Shown here: in pieces, positions 1 through 14,280 of the stretch
How the letters are laid out: the number at the start of each line of letters is the position of its first letter
Numbering within the stretch: the first letter of the stretch is position 1
NCBI GenBank assembly: GCA_002898255.1
Contig: BEIE01000003.1
Span: 124,001-188,000, forward strand
Length of the DNA stretch: 64,000 nucleotides
From: a bacterium HR28
GTDB lineage: Bacteria; Chloroflexota; Chloroflexia; Thermomicrobiales; Thermomicrobiaceae
Direction: 5' to 3'
Made by a program: the position numbers and the translations under genes
The notes under the pieces: model-generated
Seen by the model: only the letters and a program-made list of their open reading frames with translations
Told to the model about the DNA's origin: nothing
Databases searched by the model: none

Positions 1-800
1 GGTTTGGCCCAGCAGCAGTACGCGAGATGTCCGCGATGTTGCGTACCTATCACCCTTCGCTGGATGTCGATGTTTACGAGGTGCTCTCGGTGATCGATTA
101 CGGAGACCTTCCGGTTGTGCCGGGATACATCGAGGACAGCTACGAGCGTATCGAGAGCGGCTTACGGCCACTCTTAGAGCGAGACATTGTTCCGCTTGTG
201 ATTGGTGGAGATCATTCTATTACCCTGGCCGAGCTCCGGGCCGTGGCTCGGCGATATGGTCCAGTGGGGTTCGTTCAGTTCGATTCGCATACCGATACGT
301 GGGACGAATACTGGGGGAAGAAGTACACCCATGGAACACCGTTCCGGCGGGCCGTGGAAGAGGGGTTGATCGATACGCGGCGGGCGATCCAGGTGGGTAT
401 GCGGGGGTCACTTTATGGCCCCGAAGATCTGGATCAATCCCGTGCGCTCGGTTTCGAGGTGTGGACCACCGACGACATGCGTCGCACCGGCCTTGGGGCC
501 GTCAGTGAAGCGATCCGCCGTCGCCTGGGACGTGGACCAGTCTTCGTCAGTTTCGACATCGACTTTCTTGATCCGGTCTACGCGCCAGGTACTGGAACGC
601 CGGAAGTCGGTGGATTTACGACGCGGGAAGCACAGGAGCTCCTACGAGGTCTTGTCGGTGTAGACATTGTGGCGGCGGATGTCGTCGAAGTTCTACCGGC
701 GCACGACGTGAGCGGTGTTACGGCACTCGCAGCAGCGAATGTCCTGTTCGAGCTGCTGGCTGTGCTCGCAGTGAACCGGCGCACATCCGGTGTGATCTGA
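1..800 (+). CDS. Ureohydrolase (agmatinase/arginase family), 5'-truncated by window edge
   Basis: Binuclear-metal ureohydrolase that would hydrolyse a guanidino compound to urea plus an amine. The reading frame is open from base 3 and the first visible residues (FGPAAVRE) match an internal stretch of the next gene, so the true start lies upstream; the ATG at 27 is internal. Metal-ligand motifs are present: GGDHS, FDSHTD and SFDIDFLDP. It ends 62 bases before the most likely start of a closely similar paralogue at 863. The family includes agmatinase, guanidinobutyrase and guanidine hydrolase, and the substrate cannot be decided from motifs. The DUF1989 and urease neighbours favour use of a guanidino compound as a nitrogen source. 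Confidence 0.9.
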   Translation, partial: FGPAAVREMSAMLRTYHPSLDVDVYEVLSVIDYGDLPVVPGYIEDSYERIESGLRPLLERDIVPLVIGGDHSITLAELRAVARRYGPVGFVQFDSHTDTWDEYWGKKYTHGTPFRRAVEEGLIDTRRAIQVGMRGSLYGPEDLDQSRALGFEVWTTDDMRRTGLGAVSEAIRRRLGRGPVFVSFDIDFLDPVYAPGTGTPEVGGFTTREAQELLRGLVGVDIVAADVVEVLPAHDVSGVTALAAANVLFELLAVLAVNRRTSGVI

Positions 801-862
801 CGACAATATGGGTGTGGAGGACGCAACTGGCCTTGCAAGGAGCTGGATCGGAAGAGCCGCAG

Positions 863-1843
863 ATGAGCGATTCAGCGAGCATCCATAATCCCGGGCCGTG
901 GCAGCCCCGTTTCAGTGGGATGCGCACCTTTGCCCGTTTTCCCTATTCGCGAAGCCTTGACAGGGTGGATGTCGCGATCGTTGGCATTCCGTTCGATACT
1001 GGTGTCACGTATCGGCCGGGTGCGCGATTTGGGCCAGCGGCCGTGCGCGAGCACTCGTCACGCATCGAACAGTATCATCCAGTGCTTGGTGTGGATGTTT
1101 TGGCAGAGCTCTCGGTCATCGATTACGGCGATCTTCCTGTGGTTGCCGGATATACCGAGCGAAGCTTCCAGCTCATCGAAGAAGGGATAGGCTCACTCGT
1201 TGAGTCTGGAGTGATCCCGATTGGTATTGGTGGTGACCATTCGATCTCGCTGCCGGAGCTTCGTGCCGTCGCGCGACGGTATGGACCGGTGGCGCTGGTG
1301 CATTTCGACTCGCATGTAGACACCTGGGATACCATTTGGGAGACGAAGTACAACCACGGCACGCCATTTCGTCGGGCAGTGGAGGAGGGATTGGTCGACC
1401 CGGGCCGCTCGATCCAAATTGGTATCCGTGGGTCTCTCGGGGGACAGGATGAATTGGATCAATCGCGCGAACTCGGCTTTGAGGTCTGGACTGCCCGCGA
1501 AGTGCGGCGTGCGGGACTCGCGCGGATGTGTGAGGCAATCCATCGACGAGTGGGTGCGTCTCCGGTCTTCTTGAGCTTTGATATCGATTTCCTCGACCCT
1601 GTCTTCGCGCCGGGCACAGGAACCCCAGAGGTGGGAGGTTTTGCGACCTGGGAAGCGCAGGAACTCCTCTGGGGGCTGGTGGGGCTGGACATTGTGGCAG
1701 CGGATCTGGTTGAGGTCTTGCCAGACCGCGATCCTGCCGACGTGACCGCGCTCAATGCAGCAAACCTTATCTTTGATATGGTCGCGGTCATTGCCGCGAC
1801 GAGAAGGGAGAGAGGCAATGGCGCAGCCGATAGCGCCCAGTGA
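863..1843 (+). CDS. Ureohydrolase paralogue (agmatinase-like)
   Basis: Second complete ureohydrolase, about 326 aa from the ATG at 863; an in-frame start at 812 would add 17 residues of unlikely composition. It carries GGDHS, FDSHVDTWD and SFDIDFLDP, the Mn/Ni-binding motifs of the arginase fold, and PGTGTPEVGG near the C-terminus as in agmatinases. Most of its length matches the upstream gene closely, so the pair is a tandem duplication that may form a hetero-oligomer or have split substrate range. Its last 26 bases overlap the start of the DUF1989 gene, indicating co-translation. Family assignment is firm; substrate is open (agmatine, guanidinobutyrate or guanidine). Confidence 0.9.
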   Translation: MSDSASIHNPGPWQPRFSGMRTFARFPYSRSLDRVDVAIVGIPFDTGVTYRPGARFGPAAVREHSSRIEQYHPVLGVDVLAELSVIDYGDLPVVAGYTERSFQLIEEGIGSLVESGVIPIGIGGDHSISLPELRAVARRYGPVALVHFDSHVDTWDTIWETKYNHGTPFRRAVEEGLVDPGRSIQIGIRGSLGGQDELDQSRELGFEVWTAREVRRAGLARMCEAIHRRVGASPVFLSFDIDFLDPVFAPGTGTPEVGGFATWEAQELLWGLVGLDIVAADLVEVLPDRDPADVTALNAANLIFDMVAVIAATRRERGNGAADSAQ

Positions 1844-2456
1844 GCACATCTTGTTTGGCCGCGTGCCGAAGCGAGCAGCACAGGTGCGGCCAACGGTGCC
1901 GATCGCTTTTCCCCTCAAGGAGGGGCAGCTTTTACAGATCACCGATGTCCAAGGAAAGCAGGTCGCGGACATGGTCGCCTTCAACTTCCACGATGTCCGC
2001 GAGTATCTTTCGACGTCGCACACGCGTGCGATCAACAACTCGCTCGTTCTGACCCAGGGGATGATCCTCTACAGCAATCGTCGCAATCCGATGCTCGTGC
2101 TCCTGGAAGATACGGTTGGTCGCCACGACATTCTCTTCCCGGCGTGTGATCGGCGGCGATACCTGGACGACTATGGCATACCCGACCATCCAAACTGTAA
2201 AGACAACTTCTTGAGTGTTCTTGGGGAGTATGGTATCCAGGAGGATGATATCCCCGATCCCGTCAACTGGTTCATGAATGTCGGTATCGTCGCCAAGGGA
2301 CGTTTCGAGATTCGGGAACCACTCTCGGAGCGCAATGACTATGTGTTACTTCGAGCACTTATGGATCTTATTGTCGCAGTTTCCGCGTGCCCGCAGGATC
2401 AGAATCCGTGTAATGCTTTCAATCCGACCGATATTCTTGTTCGGATCTACGATTAG
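1818..2456 (+). CDS. DUF1989 (urea carboxylase-associated / carboxyguanidine deiminase-like) protein
   Basis: About 212 aa, starting at the ATG at 1818 inside the end of the preceding ureohydrolase gene. The pattern, including ITDVQGKQVADMVAFN, SHTRAINNS, LFPACDRRRY and HPNCKDNF, is that of DUF1989. This family contains the urea-carboxylase-associated proteins, two of which form carboxyguanidine deiminase in guanidine degradation. Here there is one DUF1989 gene and no urea carboxylase or allophanate hydrolase in view, so the classical carboxyguanidine route is not complete. Linkage to two ureohydrolases and a convergent urease supports a guanidino-nitrogen role. It ends 6 bases from the end of ureC on the other strand. 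Confidence 0.85.
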   Translation: MAQPIAPSEHILFGRVPKRAAQVRPTVPIAFPLKEGQLLQITDVQGKQVADMVAFNFHDVREYLSTSHTRAINNSLVLTQGMILYSNRRNPMLVLLEDTVGRHDILFPACDRRRYLDDYGIPDHPNCKDNFLSVLGEYGIQEDDIPDPVNWFMNVGIVAKGRFEIREPLSERNDYVLLRALMDLIVAVSACPQDQNPCNAFNPTDILVRIYD

Positions 2457-2462
2457 CCGGTG

Positions 2463-4163
2463 TCAGGCGATGAAATAGCGAACGGTGAGGGGGAGTTCCT
2501 CGGCGGGCGGAATGGAGACGGTCTGGCCGTCAATCGCGACTTCCAGGGTCTTCGGATCCACGCGAACACGAGGTGAGGCTGTATTGTAGTACATCGCGCC
2601 TTTAAAGATCTGGCGGGTGTTACGCACAGCGACCGGACGACGTTGCAGTCCGTACCGAACGAACGCTCCAGTTTCAAGAGCAACAGGTGCAACAAATGCG
2701 ACGGCCAAAGCCGCCGGAGCGCGGCCGAGCCCGCCAAACATTGCTCGATAGATCAACGGCTGACTCCAGCGGGTAGAACCCATACCGTCACCGACTGGAG
2801 CCCAGACCACAAACCCGCCTTTGATGACTGCAGCCGGCTTGGCACCAAAGAAGGCCGGATGCCAGAGCACAATGTCAGCAAGTTTTCCGGGCTCTAAACT
2901 ACCGACCTCATGGTCGAGGCCGTGGGTGATGGCAGGGTTGATCGTGTACTTTGCCAGATACTGCAGGATTCGCGGATTGTCATCACCAGTACCGGTCGTT
3001 GGGTCAAAGCCACCTCCGCGGACCTCTTTCATGCGGTGTGCAAGCTGCCAGGTGCGACTGATGACTTCGCCGATGCGTCCCATACCCTGCGAATCGGAGG
3101 ACATGATCGAAATGGCGCCCAGATCATGCAGGATGTCCTCGGCGGCGATCGTCGTTGCCCGCACTCGGTCATGGGCAGCAGCGACGTCGGTTGGGATATC
3201 TCGTGACAGCCGGTGCACCGCGACGATCATGTCGAACAGTTCAGCGGTGCTGTTTCGAGAGTATGGGATCGTCGGACTTGTGGAGGAGCCGATAATGTTC
3301 GGCTCGGACACAATCTCCAGGACGTTTGGTGCATGTCCACCGCCGGAACCCTCGACGTGGTAGGCGTGGATGGAGCGGCCATTGATCGCCGCGATCGTCT
3401 CACGAAGTGATCCCGCTTCGTTCAGCCCATCGGTGTGGAGCGCGACCTGGACTCCGGCTTGGTCGGCAACAGTAAGGCACGTATCGATGACCGCAGGGAA
3501 CGCGCCGACATCTTCGTGGATCTTGAATCCGGCGCACCCGGATTCAAGGTGCTCGACGAGTTGTGCGTGGTCGGAAGATCCCCGTCCAAGCACGGCGAGA
3601 TTAAGCGGAATTGCTTCAAAAGCCTCAAAGAGATGCCGTAGATTCGTTGCTGGGTTGACCCCAAGATCCCACACGCCGCCGGAACCCTGGGCAACGAGCG
3701 TGGTGATACCAGCGCTCAGCGCCGCTGGTATCACGCTGGTCGAAGAGAGGTGGACATGCGCGTCGATTGCACCAGGAGTGGCGATCAGTCCTTCGCCAGG
3801 GATTATCCCCGTGGCATTGCTGATCAGCAGTTCCACGTCGTCCATGACGTCCGGGTTCCCGGCGCGACCGATTGCAACGATGCGGCCGTCCTTGATACCG
3901 ATGTTGCTCTTGAAGATGCCAAGCACTGGATCCATGACGATGACGTTGGTGATCACAAGATCGAGCTTGCTTGGTCCATGGTCCCGGCCAGTCAGCATGC
4001 CGTCACGGACCGGTCTCCCAAAACCGACGAGCGGCTCAAATCCGGGTAGGGTATCGTCTCGTTCAATTCGGGCAAACAAATTTGTGTCAGCCAAGCGGAC
4101 TCGGTCGCCGGCCGTCGGTCCGTACCACGAGGCGTACTGCCTTCGGGTGACGCGGATCGGCAC
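2463..4163 (-). CDS. ureC: Urease alpha subunit, divergent
   Basis: Nickel-dependent catalytic subunit that hydrolyses urea to ammonia and carbamate in the cytoplasm. 566 aa, normal family length, GTG start with AGGAG 9 bases upstream. All metal ligands are visible: HVH at 136-138, the lysine to be carbamylated K214 in FKIHED, H243 (HTD), H269 (HVEG) and D357 (SSDSQ). The mobile flap is unusual: the usual V-C-H-H-L-D reads A-V-H-R-L-S (315-320), so the flap cysteine is valine and the second histidine is arginine, while the catalytic histidine (H317) is kept. The stretch after HVH also departs from the usual HWICPQQ. Last gene of the ureABC operon; no nickel-insertion genes lie in the window. 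Confidence 0.93.
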   Translation of the reverse strand: MPIRVTRRQYASWYGPTAGDRVRLADTNLFARIERDDTLPGFEPLVGFGRPVRDGMLTGRDHGPSKLDLVITNVIVMDPVLGIFKSNIGIKDGRIVAIGRAGNPDVMDDVELLISNATGIIPGEGLIATPGAIDAHVHLSSTSVIPAALSAGITTLVAQGSGGVWDLGVNPATNLRHLFEAFEAIPLNLAVLGRGSSDHAQLVEHLESGCAGFKIHEDVGAFPAVIDTCLTVADQAGVQVALHTDGLNEAGSLRETIAAINGRSIHAYHVEGSGGGHAPNVLEIVSEPNIIGSSTSPTIPYSRNSTAELFDMIVAVHRLSRDIPTDVAAAHDRVRATTIAAEDILHDLGAISIMSSDSQGMGRIGEVISRTWQLAHRMKEVRGGGFDPTTGTGDDNPRILQYLAKYTINPAITHGLDHEVGSLEPGKLADIVLWHPAFFGAKPAAVIKGGFVVWAPVGDGMGSTRWSQPLIYRAMFGGLGRAPAALAVAFVAPVALETGAFVRYGLQRRPVAVRNTRQIFKGAMYYNTASPRVRVDPKTLEVAIDGQTVSIPPAEELPLTVRYFIA

Positions 4164-4176
4164 AGTCCGACTCCTT

Positions 4177-4566
4177 TCACTCCTCTGGTTGGTGACAAAA
4201 GCCGCGGTTTACAAGTTCTTTCAGCAACGTGTCGAGGTCAGCCGTATCCACTGGTCCGTTAACGAGGCCCTGGAATCCACGGACAATGCGTCGTCCCCTG
4301 ATCGGGACAAGTGGGACCTCAAGAGTCTGGCCGGGCTCGATCCGGATAGCCCAACCCACGGGAATATCAGGGCGCATGCCAAACGCCTTCCGGCGGTCGA
4401 AACAGAGGTCGGGATTCGCTTCGAAGACATGGAAGTGGGCAGTGAGGTGCACCGGGACGGCGCCGCGATTGGTGATGCGGACAACAGTGACGGGTAGGCC
4501 AGCGTTGATCTCGACTTCCCCTTCGCCGGGGACGAGACCACCAGGCGGGATGACAATGTCCCTCAT
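4177..4566 (-). CDS. ureB: Urease beta subunit
   Basis: 129-aa structural subunit of the urease (alpha-beta-gamma)3 complex. It shows the family core HFHVFEANPDLCFDR followed by IEPGQTLEVPLV and the basic GRRIVRGFQG segment. Its ATG overlaps the ureA stop by four bases (ATGA), so the two are translationally coupled; ureC starts 13 bases downstream. The C-terminal tail of about 25 residues after NGPV is longer than in compact UreB proteins. Confidence 0.93.
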   Translation of the reverse strand: MRDIVIPPGGLVPGEGEVEINAGLPVTVVRITNRGAVPVHLTAHFHVFEANPDLCFDRRKAFGMRPDIPVGWAIRIEPGQTLEVPLVPIRGRRIVRGFQGLVNGPVDTADLDTLLKELVNRGFCHQPEE

Positions 4567-4868
4567 CGGATCGGATTCCTTACAGTCACGAGACGTGTGC
4601 CGTCCGGGAAGAGTGCGTCGATATACAGAACATTGAGCATTTCAGGGACGCCTGGGAGGACGTCATCACGGGTAAGGAGCGAACAGGCGTGAGCAACAAC
4701 CTCCTCGTATGGGCGCCCGGCGCGGGCCTCCTCGTACACCTCATCACAGATAATGGCTGCGGCCTCCGCATAGTTGAGCTTGATACCCCGCGCACGGCGA
4801 CGGCGAGCGAGTTCGGCGAGTGTGAAGACGGTGAGACGATCCAGTTCCTTCGGTGTGAGGTACATCAT
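4563..4868 (-). CDS. ureA: Urease gamma subunit
   Basis: 101-aa small urease subunit. MYLTPKELDRL at the N-terminus, the RRRRARGIKLNYAEA helix and PGVPEMLNVLYIDALFPDGT near the C-terminus are diagnostic. Two ATG codons stand in tandem at the start; the first overlaps the stop codon of the upstream 114-aa gene (ATGA), so that unknown gene is coupled to urease synthesis. ureA and ureB are separate genes here rather than fused. Confidence 0.94.
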   Translation of the reverse strand: MMYLTPKELDRLTVFTLAELARRRRARGIKLNYAEAAAIICDEVYEEARAGRPYEEVVAHACSLLTRDDVLPGVPEMLNVLYIDALFPDGTRLVTVRNPIR

Positions 4869-7042: not shown

Positions 7043-7465
7043 GTGCGACGCGCAACGGGCACTGCTGACCACAGGCAGGAACGCTCGCTCTTTGCAGTCC
7101 TGATCAAACAAACGTGGCTGTTGCCGGTGGCGACGGCCACGTTCGTTCTTTTTGTCGGCGGACCGATCGTTGCTGTCCTGCTCTTTTCGGTTACGCCTTG
7201 GCTGATTGTGCCTTTCTTGCTCCCATCCTTCATTGTGACCTGGCTCGGGCTCGTTGTTGCTCTCGCGGACCTGCTGCAACGTCCAGCGCGCTTGTTTCCC
7301 GGTGGGCGGACGCTCTGGCTGATCATGATCGCGCTCTTCAACGTCGTCGCGTTCTTGCCTTATTGGCTTTTCGTAGCTCGGCGGCCGAGACTTTCCGGTC
7401 AACCAGAGTTCTCGGTTGATTCCAGTGAGCGTAGTGCTTGCTGGAGATCGCGAACGAGCTCCTGA
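7043..7465 (+). CDS. Small membrane protein downstream of rpsU
   Basis: 140 aa, GTG start two bases after the rpsU stop. Three hydrophobic segments are visible: about residues 21-45, 50-75 and 90-112, ending LFNVVAFLPYWLFVARR, which loosely recalls the PLDc_N membrane module; that similarity is not secure. The tail is polar and serine-rich. The last 67 bases overlap the convergent gene at 7399-7866, so the C-terminus may be less constrained. Function unknown. Confidence 0.65.
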   Translation: MRRATGTADHRQERSLFAVLIKQTWLLPVATATFVLFVGGPIVAVLLFSVTPWLIVPFLLPSFIVTWLGLVVALADLLQRPARLFPGGRTLWLIMIALFNVVAFLPYWLFVARRPRLSGQPEFSVDSSERSACWRSRTSS

Positions 7466-7866
7466 ACCTCTGCTGCCGGCGCTAGCGTATCGACAGCAGT
7501 CTGGAGTTCCTCGAAGAGACGATCGACGCGATCACGGTGCTCGGGAGCGACCGCCTTACGGATTGTCTCCCATTGCGCCCGAGCCCGTTGGACTGCTGTC
7601 TGTGCAGCAGCGTACTCCTCCGGTTCTAGCACCTGTCCATTGCGGACAACTTGATCCGTGTAGAGGGACACCTGCAAGACGTCGAGCTCTGCCTGGATCC
7701 GCTCAACCGCGCCAGTGACCTCGGGATGGGGAACAGGACTCCCGCGCGACGACGCCCAGAAAATCGCTGCAATGGCGAGTACCATGATGCCGACCGCAAT
7801 CGCAGCGACACGAAGCCAGCCCGCTCTCCGGCTCTGTGGACGGACGACTACCATCAGCTTCCTCAC
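7399..7866 (-). CDS. Membrane-anchored helical protein, last gene of FTR1 operon
   Basis: 155 aa with a single N-terminal membrane segment (about residues 17-40) after a basic cytoplasmic tip, then a charged helical domain predicted to sit outside the membrane. The end (EVQELVRDLQQALRSLE) resembles the C-terminal part of the helical domain found in the FTR1 permease and the lipoprotein of the same operon. GTG start overlaps the hydantoinase stop by four bases (GTGA). Probable accessory of the iron-uptake operon; family not recognised. Confidence 0.75.
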   Translation of the reverse strand: MRKLMVVVRPQSRRAGWLRVAAIAVGIMVLAIAAIFWASSRGSPVPHPEVTGAVERIQAELDVLQVSLYTDQVVRNGQVLEPEEYAAAQTAVQRARAQWETIRKAVAPEHRDRVDRLFEELQTAVDTLAPAAEVQELVRDLQQALRSLESTENSG

Positions 7867-9917
7867 ACACGTACTGGATGACCAATGAGTAGGCAGCCGG
7901 GTTCATCAGCATCTGCCGGTGCCTGGACGGTGAGTGCACGGTCAAAGAGGAGACAGCGAGAGCCGACAATGGCACAGGCACATCCCCCAGTTGGGGCCGA
8001 GAGCGAAAGTTCTGCAGCGCTACGAAGCGCGCGGCACCAGCCATCTGCAGCGCGGAAGCAGATTGTACCGGTACTATCGACCACGACGAGTGGCCGGCGC
8101 TCACGCCGGAAGGGACCGATCCCACTACGCACGACGGCCGTGAAGACGCGGTAGAATGCGTTTTCAAACTGGAGTTCGACGCAGTGCGACGGAACCCCTA
8201 GGGCTTGTGCCGCCAGTTCCAGGGCCTCGGCGCGACTGATCCGTATCTCGGTAGAACTCGTCGATGGCTCCTGAAAGGCCGTGGCGCGAATACGTGAGGC
8301 CTGCCTTTCCGGTATCGGCTCGACGACGACTTGCACGCTGCGTCGATCTGCACCGAGAGCAACGAGACGGCGCTCGACACGCTCGATGGCAGCGAGGAGC
8401 TCGGATCCGGAACGGATATGCACCTCCTCGATCACATTCAGCGGCGTGGTCGCCGCGCCGATCGAGGCCATGACCTCGGCGTGTTGCGCGATCATGAGGG
8501 GAAGTTGGAGTCTTTGGGCCAGTGCCGGTGCAAGCACACCAGCACCGCCCCCAAGGCCGATCAGTTGTGGCTCCCGCAGCTCATAGTCCTGTATCAGTTC
8601 ACGTGCCAGCGGGACGAGTGTATCGACCGCGCGTACCAAGACTTCCCGTGCAGTCTCGTCCACCGTGCGTCCGAGCAGGTCAGCGAGCGGTTGGAACGCG
8701 GCGCGGGCGCGCTCACGGTCACCAAAGGCGTAGTCGTGCGGCGCGAGCAATCCGAGTGCATTCGCCGCATCCGTCAGTGTTAAAGCGGCAGTTCGCCCGT
8801 TCCGATCGCGGACCACAACGTAATCGGGAGTGTCTCCCGGTTGCGGTGCGATCGTGGTGATCATAAAGGGTGGCTCGAGATCGCTGGTGAAACTGACATA
8901 GGGTAGGCCAGCAATGTGAGCGCTCCGTGGACCAATGCCGATGATTCGGCCCCGCTCGACGCGGATCAGTGAACCGCCGCCGAGCCCTGCGACATGGACG
9001 TCGACAGAGCGCAGGCAGGTTGGGTGTTGCATAATGCGCACGTAGCGCAGCGCTGGGCGGCCATCGCGAATCACGCCCAGGTTCGTACTTGTGCCACCGA
9101 CCTCGACAAAGAGTGCATCGACGGTCGGATGTCCCCGTAGCGCGCCTGCGACACTTGCGGCTGGGCCAGACAGCATGCTTGCTGCTGGAAGTTCAGCAAG
9201 TTGATCGATCGGGGCAACGCTCAGGTCGCCCGTCAAGATCATAGCGGGGGCGAGGATTCCGGCTTCGCGCAATGCCGCGCGTACCCACTGTGTTGTTTCA
9301 CGCATGCGCGGCAGAATACTCGCGTTGATCGCTGCCGTCACCGTACGAACTTCCAGACCATAGAGGCCGGTCAGCTGATGGCCCGCTGTGGCAGGAAGAC
9401 CGAGTTCGCCGGCTATGGCAAGCGCGAGACGCTCCGGCTCTGGGTCTTCGACGGCGTAGGCAGCCGAAATCGCAACGGCACCAACTCCAGATCGGTGCAG
9501 CGTCTCGAGTGTAGCCCGCACCGTGTCAGGGCTAGCTGCCTCGCGATCAAGGTAGGTGTAATGGAGTGTGAGTGTGCGTCCGGGCGCGAGTTCAATCTGT
9601 TCCAGACGCGTGCGCTGTTGTGTCTGCCGCCGCTCAGCGCGTGGGCCGATCGCGAGAATCCCGACCGGTACAACGTCCCCTTCGAGCAGTGCATTGACCG
9701 CTTGGGTTGTGCTGAGCGTGACCACGCGGATCGTTTCCGGCGGGATACCAGCTTGGTCGATCAGCGTCTGCAAGGCCTGGACAGCTCCGGCCGCGACACC
9801 GTGTTTGGCGCGATGCGTGGTTGGGACGGTAACGTGGGTGAGCAGCTCGCCGGTCTCCTGATGGAGCGCAACCGCCTTCGTGAACGTACCGCCGACATCG
9901 ATGCCGATGCGGATCAC
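7863..9917 (-). CDS. Hydantoinase/oxoprolinase family protein (HyuA-like)
   Basis: 684-aa ASKHA-fold protein with the N-terminal phosphate-binding motif IDVGGTFTKAV at 6-16, the ALLEGDVVPVGI segment, the second phosphate loop VEVGGTSTNLGV, and LIGLGGGAGVLAP towards the C-terminus. The family includes ATP-dependent N-methylhydantoinase/5-oxoprolinase A subunits and acetone carboxylase subunits. No HyuB partner is adjacent. Instead it is coupled at both ends (GTGA overlaps) to FTR1 and the small helical protein, an unexpected setting, so its substrate is unknown and a role tied to iron uptake is only an inference. Confidence 0.88.
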   Translation of the reverse strand: MIRIGIDVGGTFTKAVALHQETGELLTHVTVPTTHRAKHGVAAGAVQALQTLIDQAGIPPETIRVVTLSTTQAVNALLEGDVVPVGILAIGPRAERRQTQQRTRLEQIELAPGRTLTLHYTYLDREAASPDTVRATLETLHRSGVGAVAISAAYAVEDPEPERLALAIAGELGLPATAGHQLTGLYGLEVRTVTAAINASILPRMRETTQWVRAALREAGILAPAMILTGDLSVAPIDQLAELPAASMLSGPAASVAGALRGHPTVDALFVEVGGTSTNLGVIRDGRPALRYVRIMQHPTCLRSVDVHVAGLGGGSLIRVERGRIIGIGPRSAHIAGLPYVSFTSDLEPPFMITTIAPQPGDTPDYVVVRDRNGRTAALTLTDAANALGLLAPHDYAFGDRERARAAFQPLADLLGRTVDETAREVLVRAVDTLVPLARELIQDYELREPQLIGLGGGAGVLAPALAQRLQLPLMIAQHAEVMASIGAATTPLNVIEEVHIRSGSELLAAIERVERRLVALGADRRSVQVVVEPIPERQASRIRATAFQEPSTSSTEIRISRAEALELAAQALGVPSHCVELQFENAFYRVFTAVVRSGIGPFRRERRPLVVVDSTGTICFRAADGWCRALRSAAELSLSAPTGGCACAIVGSRCLLFDRALTVQAPADADEPGCLLIGHPVRV

Positions 9918-11185
9918 GCGATCCCCCTCCCTCGATCAGTTGCACTGAGCGCACGTCTTGCTGGTGCTGATCGGTACCAGGACCAACCGGCCCAGCCCCA
10001 CGCGATCAGATAGGCAGCGGCGAGTGTCGCCTGTGTCAGGAGAACCTCTCGGGTCGGATGGAGGCCCATAAGGTCAAGGAGACTGCGATTCAGATTGGGT
10101 AGCTGGATAACTGAGATCGGGAGATAGCCGATCATTTGAAGTTCCCACACAGCGTGACCCAAGATTGCGAGGGACAAGATCATAATGATCAGAATTGCAA
10201 TGGAGAGGAAGGCACGCAAGGGGAGCCGTCTTCCAAGACCGATGATCGCCCATCCCAAGGCCACCAGAACAACCGCAGCCAAGAGGATACCCAGCAGAAC
10301 CCAAAACTCCAGTCGTCGAGCCATGAGCACGAGCGACTGGTACAGCACCGCTGTCTCCGCGCCTTCACGGTAAACGGCGGTGAAGCCCAGGAGCGCGACC
10401 GCTGATGCCTTACCTGTTGCGATCGCCTCCCACGCGTGCCCTCGGAGGTATTCCATCCAACGGCGGGTGTCAATCCGGCGCAATAGCCAGAGGCTGATCG
10501 AGATCATCAGCACCACCGCCAAGAGTGACATTCCAATCTCTAAGAGTTCTCGACCGACCGGAACCACCTGCAGGACCACAACGAGAGCCAGCCAGGTGAA
10601 GAGACTGGCAGGGATCGCAAGAGTGACTCCGATCCAGAGGGGACGGCGAAGACGCGGCTGATGGGTGCCCAAATAGCCAAGCAAGGCGGCGATAACGAGA
10701 ATCGCTTCGATCCCTTCGCGAAACAGAATAGAAAAGGAGGCAAGCCCGACGAAGAGGGGTGCAGCAAGACCAGGACCTCCGACGAGCCGCTCGACCTCCA
10801 CAAGCCCGCTCTCGATGTCCAGGAGAAGCCGTTCGATTTCGGAAGATGGTGCCCCGCGTTCGATGAGTTGCCGCCATTGAGCGAACTTGACTTCCATCGC
10901 GAACGTAAAGTTGGGATCGGCAACTCGGAGTGGGATTTCGACAAGCTCAAAATGGTCAAGGTATGCCTGCCGGGCAAGACGAAGAGCGGGCTCGCGGTCT
11001 CCTGCCTGGTAGGCGTTCTGGCTGTCCTGCATTAATTGGCGAATCGCCGTCAATTCTTGCTGCACGGTGACACTCGGCGAAGGAGATTCGGCGACAGCGC
11101 GCGGTGCGGCGAGCGTAACCAGTACGGTGAGTAGCGTGACGAACCATCCAAGCCTTGCCAATTGGCGCCGCGGAGCGACGGTCAC
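9914..11185 (-). CDS. FTR1-family iron permease with N-terminal extracytoplasmic domain
   Basis: 423 aa. A signal peptide (about 1-32) is followed by an extracytoplasmic helical domain (about 38-135) and a seven-helix FTR1 core carrying both REGxE iron-binding motifs: REGIE at 156-160 and REGAE at 273-277. FTR1/EfeU proteins move ferric iron through the cytoplasmic membrane. The extracytoplasmic domain is homologous to the C-terminal part of the lipoprotein encoded just upstream. GTG start overlaps that gene by four bases. No ferroxidase (EfeB or multicopper oxidase) is in the window, so how iron is oxidised is not shown. Confidence 0.93.
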   Translation of the reverse strand: MTVAPRRQLARLGWFVTLLTVLVTLAAPRAVAESPSPSVTVQQELTAIRQLMQDSQNAYQAGDREPALRLARQAYLDHFELVEIPLRVADPNFTFAMEVKFAQWRQLIERGAPSSEIERLLLDIESGLVEVERLVGGPGLAAPLFVGLASFSILFREGIEAILVIAALLGYLGTHQPRLRRPLWIGVTLAIPASLFTWLALVVVLQVVPVGRELLEIGMSLLAVVLMISISLWLLRRIDTRRWMEYLRGHAWEAIATGKASAVALLGFTAVYREGAETAVLYQSLVLMARRLEFWVLLGILLAAVVLVALGWAIIGLGRRLPLRAFLSIAILIIMILSLAILGHAVWELQMIGYLPISVIQLPNLNRSLLDLMGLHPTREVLLTQATLAAAYLIAWGWAGWSWYRSAPARRALSATDRGRGIA

Positions 11186-12315
11186 CGGAGCACCTCCTCA
11201 ACCTCCTCGAGCGCGCTCTCCACGTTGCGGATGAGCTGCTCGACTTCGCCCGCCGGGCGCCCTGCGCGGATCGCGTCGCGGATCGCCTTGAAGTCCCTTT
11301 CGAGCTGTTCGACGAGTTCGCGATGCCCGCGCTCCAGCAATGCTGGTTCGAGTGCTTCGAACCCCTCCAGGTAAGCGTTGGCCGCTTCTTCGTAGGCTCG
11401 GTCAGTATCGCCGGCGCGGTAGGCCTGTAACGCGGCTGCGAGCATGTCGCGAATCTTGGCGAGCTGCTCTTCGGTTGACGATGTCGCTGAAGCACTGATG
11501 CCGAAGGCATCGCGCAGTTCACTTGCCAGGTGTTGCAGTCGCTCGCGGGCCGTATCAGCTTCGGGAATCTTCGCTCCCGGAGTATCGGAGAACTGTGCGA
11601 AGGTCGTCTGAGCCAGTGCCTCCAGGTCTTCCTGTGCTTCAGTTATTGCACCTTGCCCACTTGCTGGTGCGGTCGAGAGCACGATTGGAAGCTCGCTACG
11701 CAAAACGTGAAAGAATCCCCAGGAGTCCTGAAACTCCTCGACATTCACGATCCGCCCGTTCTCAACACCCTCAGAGAACTCGGTGGCGATAGACTCTGCC
11801 AGAAGCGCCAGTGCTGCAGCACGCGTCACACTTGGTTCTGGAGATTCATCGACGATAGTTCGGATCACATTTTGGACCGCTTGGCGTGCTGTGTCATTTC
11901 GTGATGCGGCGTCATTGGCCTGCTGCTTCGCCGCCTCCAGGTAGTCATCCAGCGCTCCGCGGACGCTGGCGAGGTTACGAGCCGTAAGGGCCGCTTCGAC
12001 GCTAGCCCAGTATTCGGCGGTCGGATGAGCCGCATGCGCTTGGACGAGTGTCCAGTTCCCTCGCTCGAGGTTGGCCCGGCTGGCTTCTAAGTGACCCAGC
12101 ATCTCATAGAGCGTGGCGACGAGCTCGCTTTCATCCTCACGCGAAGTCGCTGTATGACTGAGGTCGGGCGAGGCTGTTGGAGCAGTCGTGACCGGTGACT
12201 GGCTTGCTGGTTGGGTGCTAGGAACTGTCTCGTCGGATGAGATACAAGCCGCGAGAACAAGCGCCAAAATTCCACAAACAAGCATCGACCGAATGGGGAT
12301 CCTTGTCACACCCAC
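11182..12315 (-). CDS. Iron-uptake associated lipoprotein
   Basis: 377 aa with lipobox LAAC (lipidated cysteine near residue 24), a Thr/Ser/Pro-rich linker, then long helical segments. The first folded part contains AHAAHPTAEYW, a His-containing motif reminiscent of the periplasmic domains fused to FTR1 permeases. The C-terminal 95 residues (IRDMLAAALQAYRAGD to EVEEVLR) match the N-terminal domain of the neighbouring permease in sequence and length. First gene of the operon, probably the surface iron-binding partner of FTR1. GTG at 12315 has GAAGG five bases upstream; an ATG at 12285 is a shorter alternative. Confidence 0.8.
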   Translation of the reverse strand: MGVTRIPIRSMLVCGILALVLAACISSDETVPSTQPASQSPVTTAPTASPDLSHTATSREDESELVATLYEMLGHLEASRANLERGNWTLVQAHAAHPTAEYWASVEAALTARNLASVRGALDDYLEAAKQQANDAASRNDTARQAVQNVIRTIVDESPEPSVTRAAALALLAESIATEFSEGVENGRIVNVEEFQDSWGFFHVLRSELPIVLSTAPASGQGAITEAQEDLEALAQTTFAQFSDTPGAKIPEADTARERLQHLASELRDAFGISASATSSTEEQLAKIRDMLAAALQAYRAGDTDRAYEEAANAYLEGFEALEPALLERGHRELVEQLERDFKAIRDAIRAGRPAGEVEQLIRNVESALEEVEEVLR

Positions 12316-12384
12316 GCCTTCGTCCCTTCCTTTGGAACGCGTCCTCTCCGCTCTGCAGTTCCCCGATCCGGTCGCCGGCGACCA

Positions 12385-12408
12385 AATCCGAGTAAATCAC
12401 TCGGGATT
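12385..12408. promoter_or_regulatory. Dyad operator candidate at the FTR1-operon transcription start
   Basis: AATCCGAGT and ACTCGGGATT form an interrupted inverted repeat around AAATC, with one extra G in the right arm. It begins just downstream of the -10 box and covers the predicted transcription start, the place for a repressor. It does not match the classical Fur or DtxR consensus. Confidence 0.5.
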
Positions 12409-12409
12409 C

Positions 12410-12438
12410 ATTCTAGAGAGCGACCAGGGGCATGTCAA
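12410..12438 (-). promoter_or_regulatory. Sigma-70-type promoter of the FTR1 operon
   Basis: Minus-strand -35 TTGACA (12433-12438) and -10 TAGAAT (12410-12415) with 17-base spacing, about 90 bases upstream of the lipoprotein start. Confidence 0.8.
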
Positions 12439-12949: not shown

Positions 12950-13615
12950 TCAGACCGGCCAGGACTCCATGCGCCAGGCAGCGTCCCAGAACATCCATTC
13001 GTACCGTGACGTGGTCACAAAGTGCGCGCGGACGGCCGCGCGACGTCCCTCGGGGAGATCCGCCGCTGCTTCGTCGGTCACGTCGATGACCGCCCGCACG
13101 ACCTGGGCATACTCCTCGGACGCATAGGTCGCGATCCAGCGCTGATAGAGTGGATTCGGAGAGCCCGCTTTCTCCAGGTGTTTTCCCACTTCCCAGTAGA
13201 TCCAGTAGCACGGCAGGACTGCTCCAAGGAGCTCCTCGAAGGGGCGATCATAGGCAATGCGAAGGAGATACGAGGTGTAGGCTAAGTTTGTGGGCGCATA
13301 TGGAGTTGCAGCGATCTCTTCCGGCGAGAGTCCCCATTCGCGGAAGAAACTGTCATGGAGCGAGCGTTCCACGACCAACGCAACTTTGGCGTGATCCGCA
13401 AAGAGTTCACACCAAGGATCGCGCGGTGACTTGGCTGCTGCGAGAGCCAGACAGCGTGCATAGTCCCGTAAGTACAGGGCGTCTTGAACAACATAATAGC
13501 GAAATGCATCTTCAGGAAGTGTGCCATCCGTCAGGCCGCGAACGAAAGGATGCGCGAGGATGGCTGCGAAGATGTCGGCGATTGAGTTCCAGAGTTCTTC
13601 AGTAAAGCGAGGCAT
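12950..13615 (-). CDS. tenA: TenA-family aminopyrimidine aminohydrolase / thiaminase II (TenA_C type)
   Basis: 221 aa from the ATG at 13615, which has GGAAGGAG upstream. TenA salvages the pyrimidine half of degraded thiamin by hydrolysing aminopyrimidines. The catalytic cysteine aligns with C136 in LPCYWIYWEVG, and conserved YYVVQDALYLRDY and TSRYEWMFWDAAW segments are present. It follows a second TenA gene by 17 bases; both lie behind a TPP riboswitch, so the pair is repressed when thiamin pyrophosphate is plentiful. Confidence 0.92.
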   Translation of the reverse strand: MPRFTEELWNSIADIFAAILAHPFVRGLTDGTLPEDAFRYYVVQDALYLRDYARCLALAAAKSPRDPWCELFADHAKVALVVERSLHDSFFREWGLSPEEIAATPYAPTNLAYTSYLLRIAYDRPFEELLGAVLPCYWIYWEVGKHLEKAGSPNPLYQRWIATYASEEYAQVVRAVIDVTDEAAADLPEGRRAAVRAHFVTTSRYEWMFWDAAWRMESWPV

Positions 13616-13632
13616 CGATGACTCCTTCCCGT

Positions 13633-14280
13633 TCAGATCGGCCATGTCGTGCCGGTATAGACCATGTCCCAAAACAGGTACTCATAGCGTGCTGTAGCGA
13701 GGAAGGCTCGGCGAAGTGCCGGATACTCGGCGCTGCTCGACCAGCGGACAAGCTGTGCTCCGAGCCAATCGACCCACGCGGCGAACTGTGGGCTTGTCCA
13801 GTTCTCGATCCAGCGTGCGTAGGGTTCCGCGAGGCCGAGTGCTTGCCGGACAGTGGACCAGGCGTCGTAGTACGCCTTTTCAGCTCCCCACAGGACCGCG
13901 AGCGTCTCCCCGAGCGAGCCGGTCGCCGCAGTAGCGAGAAGGAAGCTGGTATAACCGAGGCACACCGGAGTAGGCTCGACCTCGAGCTGCAGCCCTCGTT
14001 GACGAGCGTAATCCTCGAAGATGGTGAGTTCGTTGCGGAAGGCAACAGCTGCATCCAGGAGGCCGCGGCGGAGTTCTTCGTCCGGTGCGCGGGCGATGAG
14101 TAGTGCGAGGAAACGCAGACCGTCCTGGACGAACCGGTAGTCTTGCTGCACCCAAAAGTCGAAGCGTTCACGGGGAAGACGACCGGTGGCAAGTTCACGG
14201 AGAAACGGATGTGCTGTCATGGCCTCCCAGATGGGGCGCGCTTCGGTTAAGAGCTCATCGAGGAGGGTGGTGGACATCAT
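13633..14280 (-). CDS. TenA-family protein, TenA_E-like (no active-site cysteine)
   Basis: 215 aa, TenA fold with WVQQDYRFVQDGLRF and TARYEYLFWDMVY matching the same positions in the neighbour. Where the neighbour has the catalytic cysteine this protein has glycine in LWGAEKAYYDAW, the pattern of the TenA_E subgroup, in which catalysis depends on glutamate. Members may act on formylaminopyrimidine or related thiamin breakdown products. First gene behind the riboswitch. Confidence 0.88.
   Translation of the reverse strand: MMSTTLLDELLTEARPIWEAMTAHPFLRELATGRLPRERFDFWVQQDYRFVQDGLRFLALLIARAPDEELRRGLLDAAVAFRNELTIFEDYARQRGLQLEVEPTPVCLGYTSFLLATAATGSLGETLAVLWGAEKAYYDAWSTVRQALGLAEPYARWIENWTSPQFAAWVDWLGAQLVRWSSSAEYPALRRAFLATARYEYLFWDMVYTGTTWPI

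Follow-up and report, generated by a model that had tools for sequence, protein, structure and literature searches.

The 64,000-nt window analysed here (positions 124,001–188,000 of contig BEIE01000003.1 of bacterium HR28, a Thermomicrobium genome denoted G000; coordinates below are positions within this window) contains a minus-strand operon of four genes, running from 12315 to 7399 in the order lipoprotein, FTR1-family permease, HyuA-like (hydantoinase/oxoprolinase-type) protein and single-pass membrane protein (genes 1 to 4; Table 1). Our tentatively favoured reading is that this operon encodes an iron-regulated FTR1 importer with its own cytosolic ATP-using protein, the HyuA-like product of gene 3. 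The open reading frames (ORFs) of the window indicate that the operon holds only these four genes, all of which start with GTG.

The arrangement recurs well beyond HR28. Searching the class (158 genomes) recovered 12 intact HyuA orthologues scoring at least 579 bits and a single fragment at a contig end, with a drop to about 105 bits for the next HyuA. Each of the 12 intact genes immediately followed FTR1 and was itself followed by the small gene. Wider searches added two Chloroflexota families (loci L172 and L173) and three Actinomycetota genomes (L188, L189 and L190), so that FTR1-linked HyuA proteins were found in Chloroflexota families f1, f14, f47 and f89 and in these three genomes, a distribution that is a lower bound, as sampling outside Chloroflexota covered about 300 Actinomycetota, 300 Bacillota and 250 Pseudomonadota genomes. 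The initial annotation had called for a survey of FTR1 neighbourhoods with uniqueness to this genome as the adverse outcome; recurrence in 17 genomes of two phyla rules that outcome out, and a chance arrangement is rejected on the same count. The full set is not seen at every locus: in G122 the contig ends before the lipoprotein gene, and L189 has a short lipoprotein and yielded no small membrane protein.

In a maximum-likelihood tree all 17 intact FTR1-linked HyuA proteins formed one branch (support 100/100), and FTR1 linkage required one change on the tree against a mean of 13.9 when shuffled. The genes flanking the cassette vary between genera and the four genes therefore travel as a unit. 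The dN/dS ratio of HyuA (0.11–0.16) was similar to that of FTR1, and the protein distances of the two were correlated (r 0.98), as shared descent alone would also give. This conservation bears on the alternative that the HyuA-like protein is an enzyme of some other metabolism, sharing nothing with the permease except the operon and its iron regulation. Operons can carry unrelated genes, and urease and arginase-family genes lie close by in Thermomicrobium (here urease alpha, beta and gamma and two arginase-family genes, within about 8 kb of the operon and in separate units); however, the HyuA–FTR1 link holds across two phyla despite changing flanks, and purifying selection on HyuA is as strong as on FTR1, which makes such a passenger improbable.

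The gene junctions contribute less to the argument than was first supposed. ORF coordinates bear out the earlier observation of exactly four-base overlaps at all three junctions (GTGA at 11182–11185, 9914–9917 and 7863–7866), from which it had been concluded that the HyuA-like protein is made in step with the permease; that conclusion can be carried no further than the overlaps themselves, since three consecutive four-base overlaps occur only in the close species G000, G002 and G006. In G004, G005, G125, G121–G124, G101 and G103 the gene order is found without full overlaps, the later junctions being mostly gaps of about 3–29 bases. A four-base overlap is also an ordinary feature of this window, the urease gamma/beta pair having one too (4563–4566), and is not itself unusual. 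It is thus the conserved four-gene order, and not the overlaps, on which a chance arrangement is dismissed.

The operon promoter, with 0.2 matches of this quality expected, is conserved in five Thermomicrobium genomes, and the palindrome that follows its −10 box (Table 1) was found at the equivalent place in G002, G004, G005, G006, G125, G121, G123 and G124 as well as in G000. The G125 genome has exactly two copies of the pattern CCGASTNNNNNASTCGG, one before the cassette and the other before a second FTR1 gene; in Thermomicrobium the 23-bp form also precedes an FbpA/HitA-type ferric-ion ABC operon (binding protein hit 7w3w, 4.6e-86), and in G121 the palindrome stands before the FecB/FecCD genes of a siderophore ABC transporter and before a nitroreductase gene. 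Total counts of the exact 17-bp palindrome were not above those of a backwards control, so that only its positions are telling, whereas the 23-bp palindrome at three or fewer mismatches gave 83 sites against 23 in the control, summed over eight genomes. These positions indicate that the operon shares a putative operator with other iron-import genes (FbpA-type, FecB/FecCD and the second FTR1). Iron genes and regulators also adjoin the cassette elsewhere: a Fur gene at L173, DtxR-family genes with FeoA domains at L172, L190 and L136, FecCD and FhuC-like genes in G103, and in G122–G124 (the g5 cassettes) the genes of an ABC transporter (binding protein, permease and ATPase), of which the first two resemble their counterparts in the FbpA-type operon. 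With the shared gene order and the single HyuA clade, the shared palindrome and these neighbours uphold the iron-related role suggested in the initial annotation, and make it highly probable that the HyuA-like protein of the cassette belongs to iron uptake.

Nitroreductase-family genes, orthologous in two genera, are preceded by the palindrome (L257, 369–391; L260, 2877–2899) and are possible new members of the iron regulon. Exact 23-bp copies in orthologous regions of two Thermomicrobium genomes (L231, 2650–2672; L255, 3039–3061) lie near a gene with a bifunctional-nuclease domain, with no obvious iron gene beside them. A perfect 14-bp palindrome, GGTCGCCGGCGACC, lies at 12370–12383 between the putative operator and the first gene; this block shows strong conservation across five Thermomicrobium genomes, two of which have a changed base, and the palindrome may serve as a further operator or form a hairpin in the RNA.

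Table 1. Features of the FTR1–HyuA operon and its upstream region
Feature	Position in window	Strand	Basis or remark
Gene 1, lipoprotein, 377 aa, all-helical, extracytoplasmic	11182..12315	-	ORF, lipobox, hhalign, AlphaFold
Gene 2, FTR1-family iron permease, 423 aa, N-terminal helical domain	9914..11185	-	PF03239, TIGR00145, REGxE motifs
Gene 3, HyuA-like ASKHA protein, 684 aa, no membrane segment	7863..9917	-	PF01968, PF05378, AlphaFold
Gene 4, single-pass membrane protein, 155 aa, short basic N-terminal tail then helical domain	7399..7866	-	Membrane segment 20-38
Phosphate-1 motif GIDVGGTFTK, HyuA residues 5-14	9876..9905	-	D7 kept (= CapA D11); K14 replaces CapA D18
Phosphate-2 motif EVGGTSTN, HyuA residues 272-279	9081..9104	-	E272 replaces CapA D295; N279 replaces CapA D302
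GPRSAHIAGLPY, HyuA residues 329-340	8898..8933	-	HIAGLP in place of HyuA/CapA GxxPGP motif
Sigma-70-like promoter TTGACA-17-TAGAAT of operon	12410..12438	-	11/12 matches
Palindrome AATCCGAGTAAATCACTCGGGAT, just after -10 box, putative operator of iron-responsive regulator	12385..12407	.	Positional conservation

The permease matches FTR1/EfeU models (PF03239, 3.6e-17, 63 bits against a cut-off of 25.3; TIGR00145, 7.5e-24), with a score under the stricter TIGR00145 and EfeU equivalog cut-offs, and carries two REGxE motifs in membrane segments (REGIE at 156, REGAE at 273) that are invariant except at x in 12 orthologues; no sequence match for it was found in the PDB. The lipobox of gene 1 is LAAC, LxxC-type boxes being present in 10 orthologues, and the AlphaFold model of the protein (all structure predictions are of single chains) is helical, with a pLDDT (predicted local distance difference test) score of 86. 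Its C-terminal domain (about residues 278–377) is homologous to the N-terminal domain of the permease (hhalign 98.5%, E 3.5e-15), and the outer helical domain of gene 4, a protein conserved across 13 aligned sequences including its basic N-terminal tail, is related to the middle of the gene 1 family (hhalign 94%, E 1.3e-7). Three of the four cassette proteins thus have related helical domains and very probably act jointly on iron outside the membrane. In some other Chloroflexota (L162–L164), a lipoprotein-like part is fused in front of the permease in FTR1 proteins of more than 770 residues (E 6e-9 to 4e-6).

As in the EfeUOB and other FTR1 systems (EfeU, FetMP, P19-cFtr1, FtrABCD), the cassette combines an FTR1 permease with two REGxE motifs, an adjoining extracytoplasmic partner and iron regulators or iron genes nearby; unlike them, it has no EfeB peroxidase, cupredoxin or P19 gene and encodes two further proteins, one soluble and HyuA-like, the other helical with a single membrane pass. 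Pfam assignments and operon content place neither an EfeB peroxidase nor an EfeO cupredoxin/imelysin partner beside the permease. Pfam/NCBIfam searches of genes 1 and 4 gave no convincing family, with neither EfeO nor EfeB among the matches, and comparison of gene 1 with EfeO/EfeM gave weak Foldseek matches only (E 0.08–0.1), VIA-align returning only general four-helix bundles. Published EfeUOB and imelysin accounts (PMC9174327, PMC3143127) contain no hydantoinase, and a literature search, with most subscription papers outside its reach, turned up no account of HyuA within an FTR1 operon.

Gene 3 has both Pfam domains of the HyuA family (PF05378, 7.8e-21; PF01968, 3.6e-46), and its two nearest matches are Thermomicrobium proteins, 94% and 85% identical. 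Its AlphaFold model (pLDDT 80.5, residues 635–668 unreliable) matches the kinase subunits of acetone and acetophenone carboxylases and the caprolactamase CapA over residues 1–563 (Z 19–25), with identities to hydantoinase-family relatives of 19–24% in the structural alignments. The carboxylase kinase subunits (Apc alpha-type, Acx beta) are the closest in fold (5m45_B, Z 25.0, 510 aligned, 5.3 A; 5svc_B, Z 24.7, 507 aligned, 4.5 A; 5l9w_b, Z 24.6, 505 aligned, 4.5 A); the cassette differs in having no partner subunits or carboxylase context, and the active-site residues are different. With HyuA, CapA and N-methylhydantoinase the protein shares the ASKHA fold, the GGT loops and the first phosphate-1 aspartate, but it is encoded without HyuB/CapB, has K/E/N at the positions of CapA D18/D295/D302 and has lost the GxxPGP motif defined for HyuA/CapA-type proteins (PMC5214803, PMC8453981). 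In CapA, alanine mutants of the ATP-site residues D11 and D295 give much less product, while D18 has been placed at the magnesium of the alpha-phosphate and D302 at the substrate site (PMC8453981). K14, E272 and N279 were present in every FTR1-linked HyuA, against D/D/D in 111 other HyuA loci, and residue 14 was K in 36/36 subfamily locus records scanned against D in the 111, some of the records in these counts coming from one repeated genome.

A catalytically dead scaffold, or a nucleotide-sensing regulator without turnover, would accord with the loss of GxxPGP and with K14, which stands where CapA has the aspartate assigned to the magnesium of the alpha-phosphate. We consider it very unlikely: D7 and the GGT loops do not vary, nor does most of the second glycine loop (GLGGGAG, residues 454–460), and within the FTR1 clade the substituted residues are invariant too, a pattern that suggests re-tooling rather than decay.

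The protein could alternatively be an ordinary hydantoinase/oxoprolinase alpha subunit served by a HyuB encoded elsewhere, given its Pfam HyuA domains and the occurrence of a HyuB somewhere in most cassette genomes. None of these HyuB genes lies beside the cassette, and in Thermomicrobium the single HyuB adjoins a different HyuA on another contig, which agrees with the earlier statement that no HyuB is near the operon. Whole-genome searches of the cassette genomes G103 (99% complete) and G101 (96% complete) found no HyuB, and the FTR1-linked HyuA therefore cannot depend on HyuB in at least part of its range. The canonical enzyme with HyuB in trans is rejected on these HyuB-free genomes, and the replacement of three active-site aspartates and of GxxPGP leaves an ordinary hydantoinase with hardly any probability; on these grounds, gene 3 does not encode one. 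HyuA-type opening of a lactam requires HyuB/CapB for the hydrolysis half of the reaction (PMC8453981), and no supporting gene was found, so that the action on an iron-chelating lactam proposed in the initial annotation is not sustained. A second, shorter HyuA type (about 518 aa, with GGTNTD/GGTTTD motifs) is encoded outside the subfamily at G000:C1:572597-573586 and was present in 5/7 Thermomicrobium genomes searched.

E272 and the HIA loop are common to a sister group of HyuA proteins in Bacillota, Chloroflexota and Actinomycetota, which points to the FTR1 clade having been recruited from within a larger E-type subfamily that is uncharacterised. The sister proteins share with those of the cassette the E at phosphate 2, a GPRSxHIA loop and 37–43% identity, whereas no FTR1 or iron genes were seen beside them and several keep D at 14 and 279. 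They mostly adjoin DcuC-like (C4-dicarboxylate type) permeases and sugar-acid, FAD-oxidoreductase or aldolase genes; most of the sister-clade permeases have no Pfam family. At L174, L175, L193, L203–L205, L207–L212, L214 and L215 a DcuC-like permease is accompanied, often, by a protein of 180–220 aa and an FAD oxidoreductase, the 180–220 aa neighbour carrying a HEIYHHLE/HELYHFLE motif in L174/L175.

These neighbourhoods lend some weight to the main rival of a permease partner, namely a stand-alone kinase that phosphorylates a small iron-binding carboxylate or carbonyl compound (a hydroxy acid, for example), thereby releasing iron or keeping it in the cell without touching the permease. Characterised relatives of the fold phosphorylate carbonyl, carboxylate or bicarbonate groups (PMC5214803, PMC8453981). 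The cassette, however, keeps no gene for the synthesis or import of such a ligand. FTR1 permeases, moreover, transport iron rather than organic chelates, and we regard a ligand kinase as possible but rather unlikely. Because of this property of FTR1, and because no other component of a HyuA pathway is present, we favour direct action of the HyuA-like protein on the permease complex, although with appreciable doubt.

That the protein is ATP-dependent and HyuB-independent is the more secure part of this reading, and is probable. Several points weigh on the other side. ATP binding is a prediction, drawn from the fold and from the retention of D7 and the GGT motifs; GxxPGP is lost; K14 and N279 also occur in part of the sister group and hence are not marks of an FTR1 role; and the sister neighbourhoods, with their DcuC-like permeases and sugar-acid or FAD-oxidoreductase genes, resemble those of an enzyme more than those of a transport ATPase. 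The ATP-dependent regulator considered in the initial annotation stands as possible, in the form of a partner or regulator of the permease.

Under the permease-partner reading, the lipoprotein and the helical domains would collect iron outside the membrane and pass it to FTR1, while the HyuA-like protein would bind ATP at the inner face of the membrane, where it may be held by the permease, by the basic cytosolic tail of the small membrane protein, or by both. ATP spent by the HyuA-like protein might then make iron entry one-way, or might open or close the permease. That a cytosolic ASKHA ATPase energises or gates an FTR1 permease in this manner is a speculative proposal, and we would not call it likely.

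Around the operon, two overlapping TenA/THI-4 family genes (12950–14280, same strand) lie directly upstream and are conserved in Thermomicrobium. The stretch 27–4868 carries two tandem arginase-family genes, a DUF1989 gene and a urease gamma-beta-alpha operon, and is syntenic in Thermomicrobium.

The combination of Lys14, Glu272, Asn279 and HIAGLP provides a sequence rule by which FTR1-linked HyuA proteins can be spotted, and a set of Chloroflexota and Actinomycetota proteins annotated as hydantoinase/oxoprolinase probably carries the wrong name. In the literature consulted, FTR1 systems have no cytosolic ATP-using part, and the cassette, conserved and apparently iron-regulated, offers a set of only four genes in which the way bacterial FTR1 permeases are driven can be tested. 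If the HyuA-like protein does energise or gate the permease, the cassette would represent a class of FTR1 iron importers driven by ATP, and an ASKHA protein of the hydantoinase type would take part directly in membrane transport.

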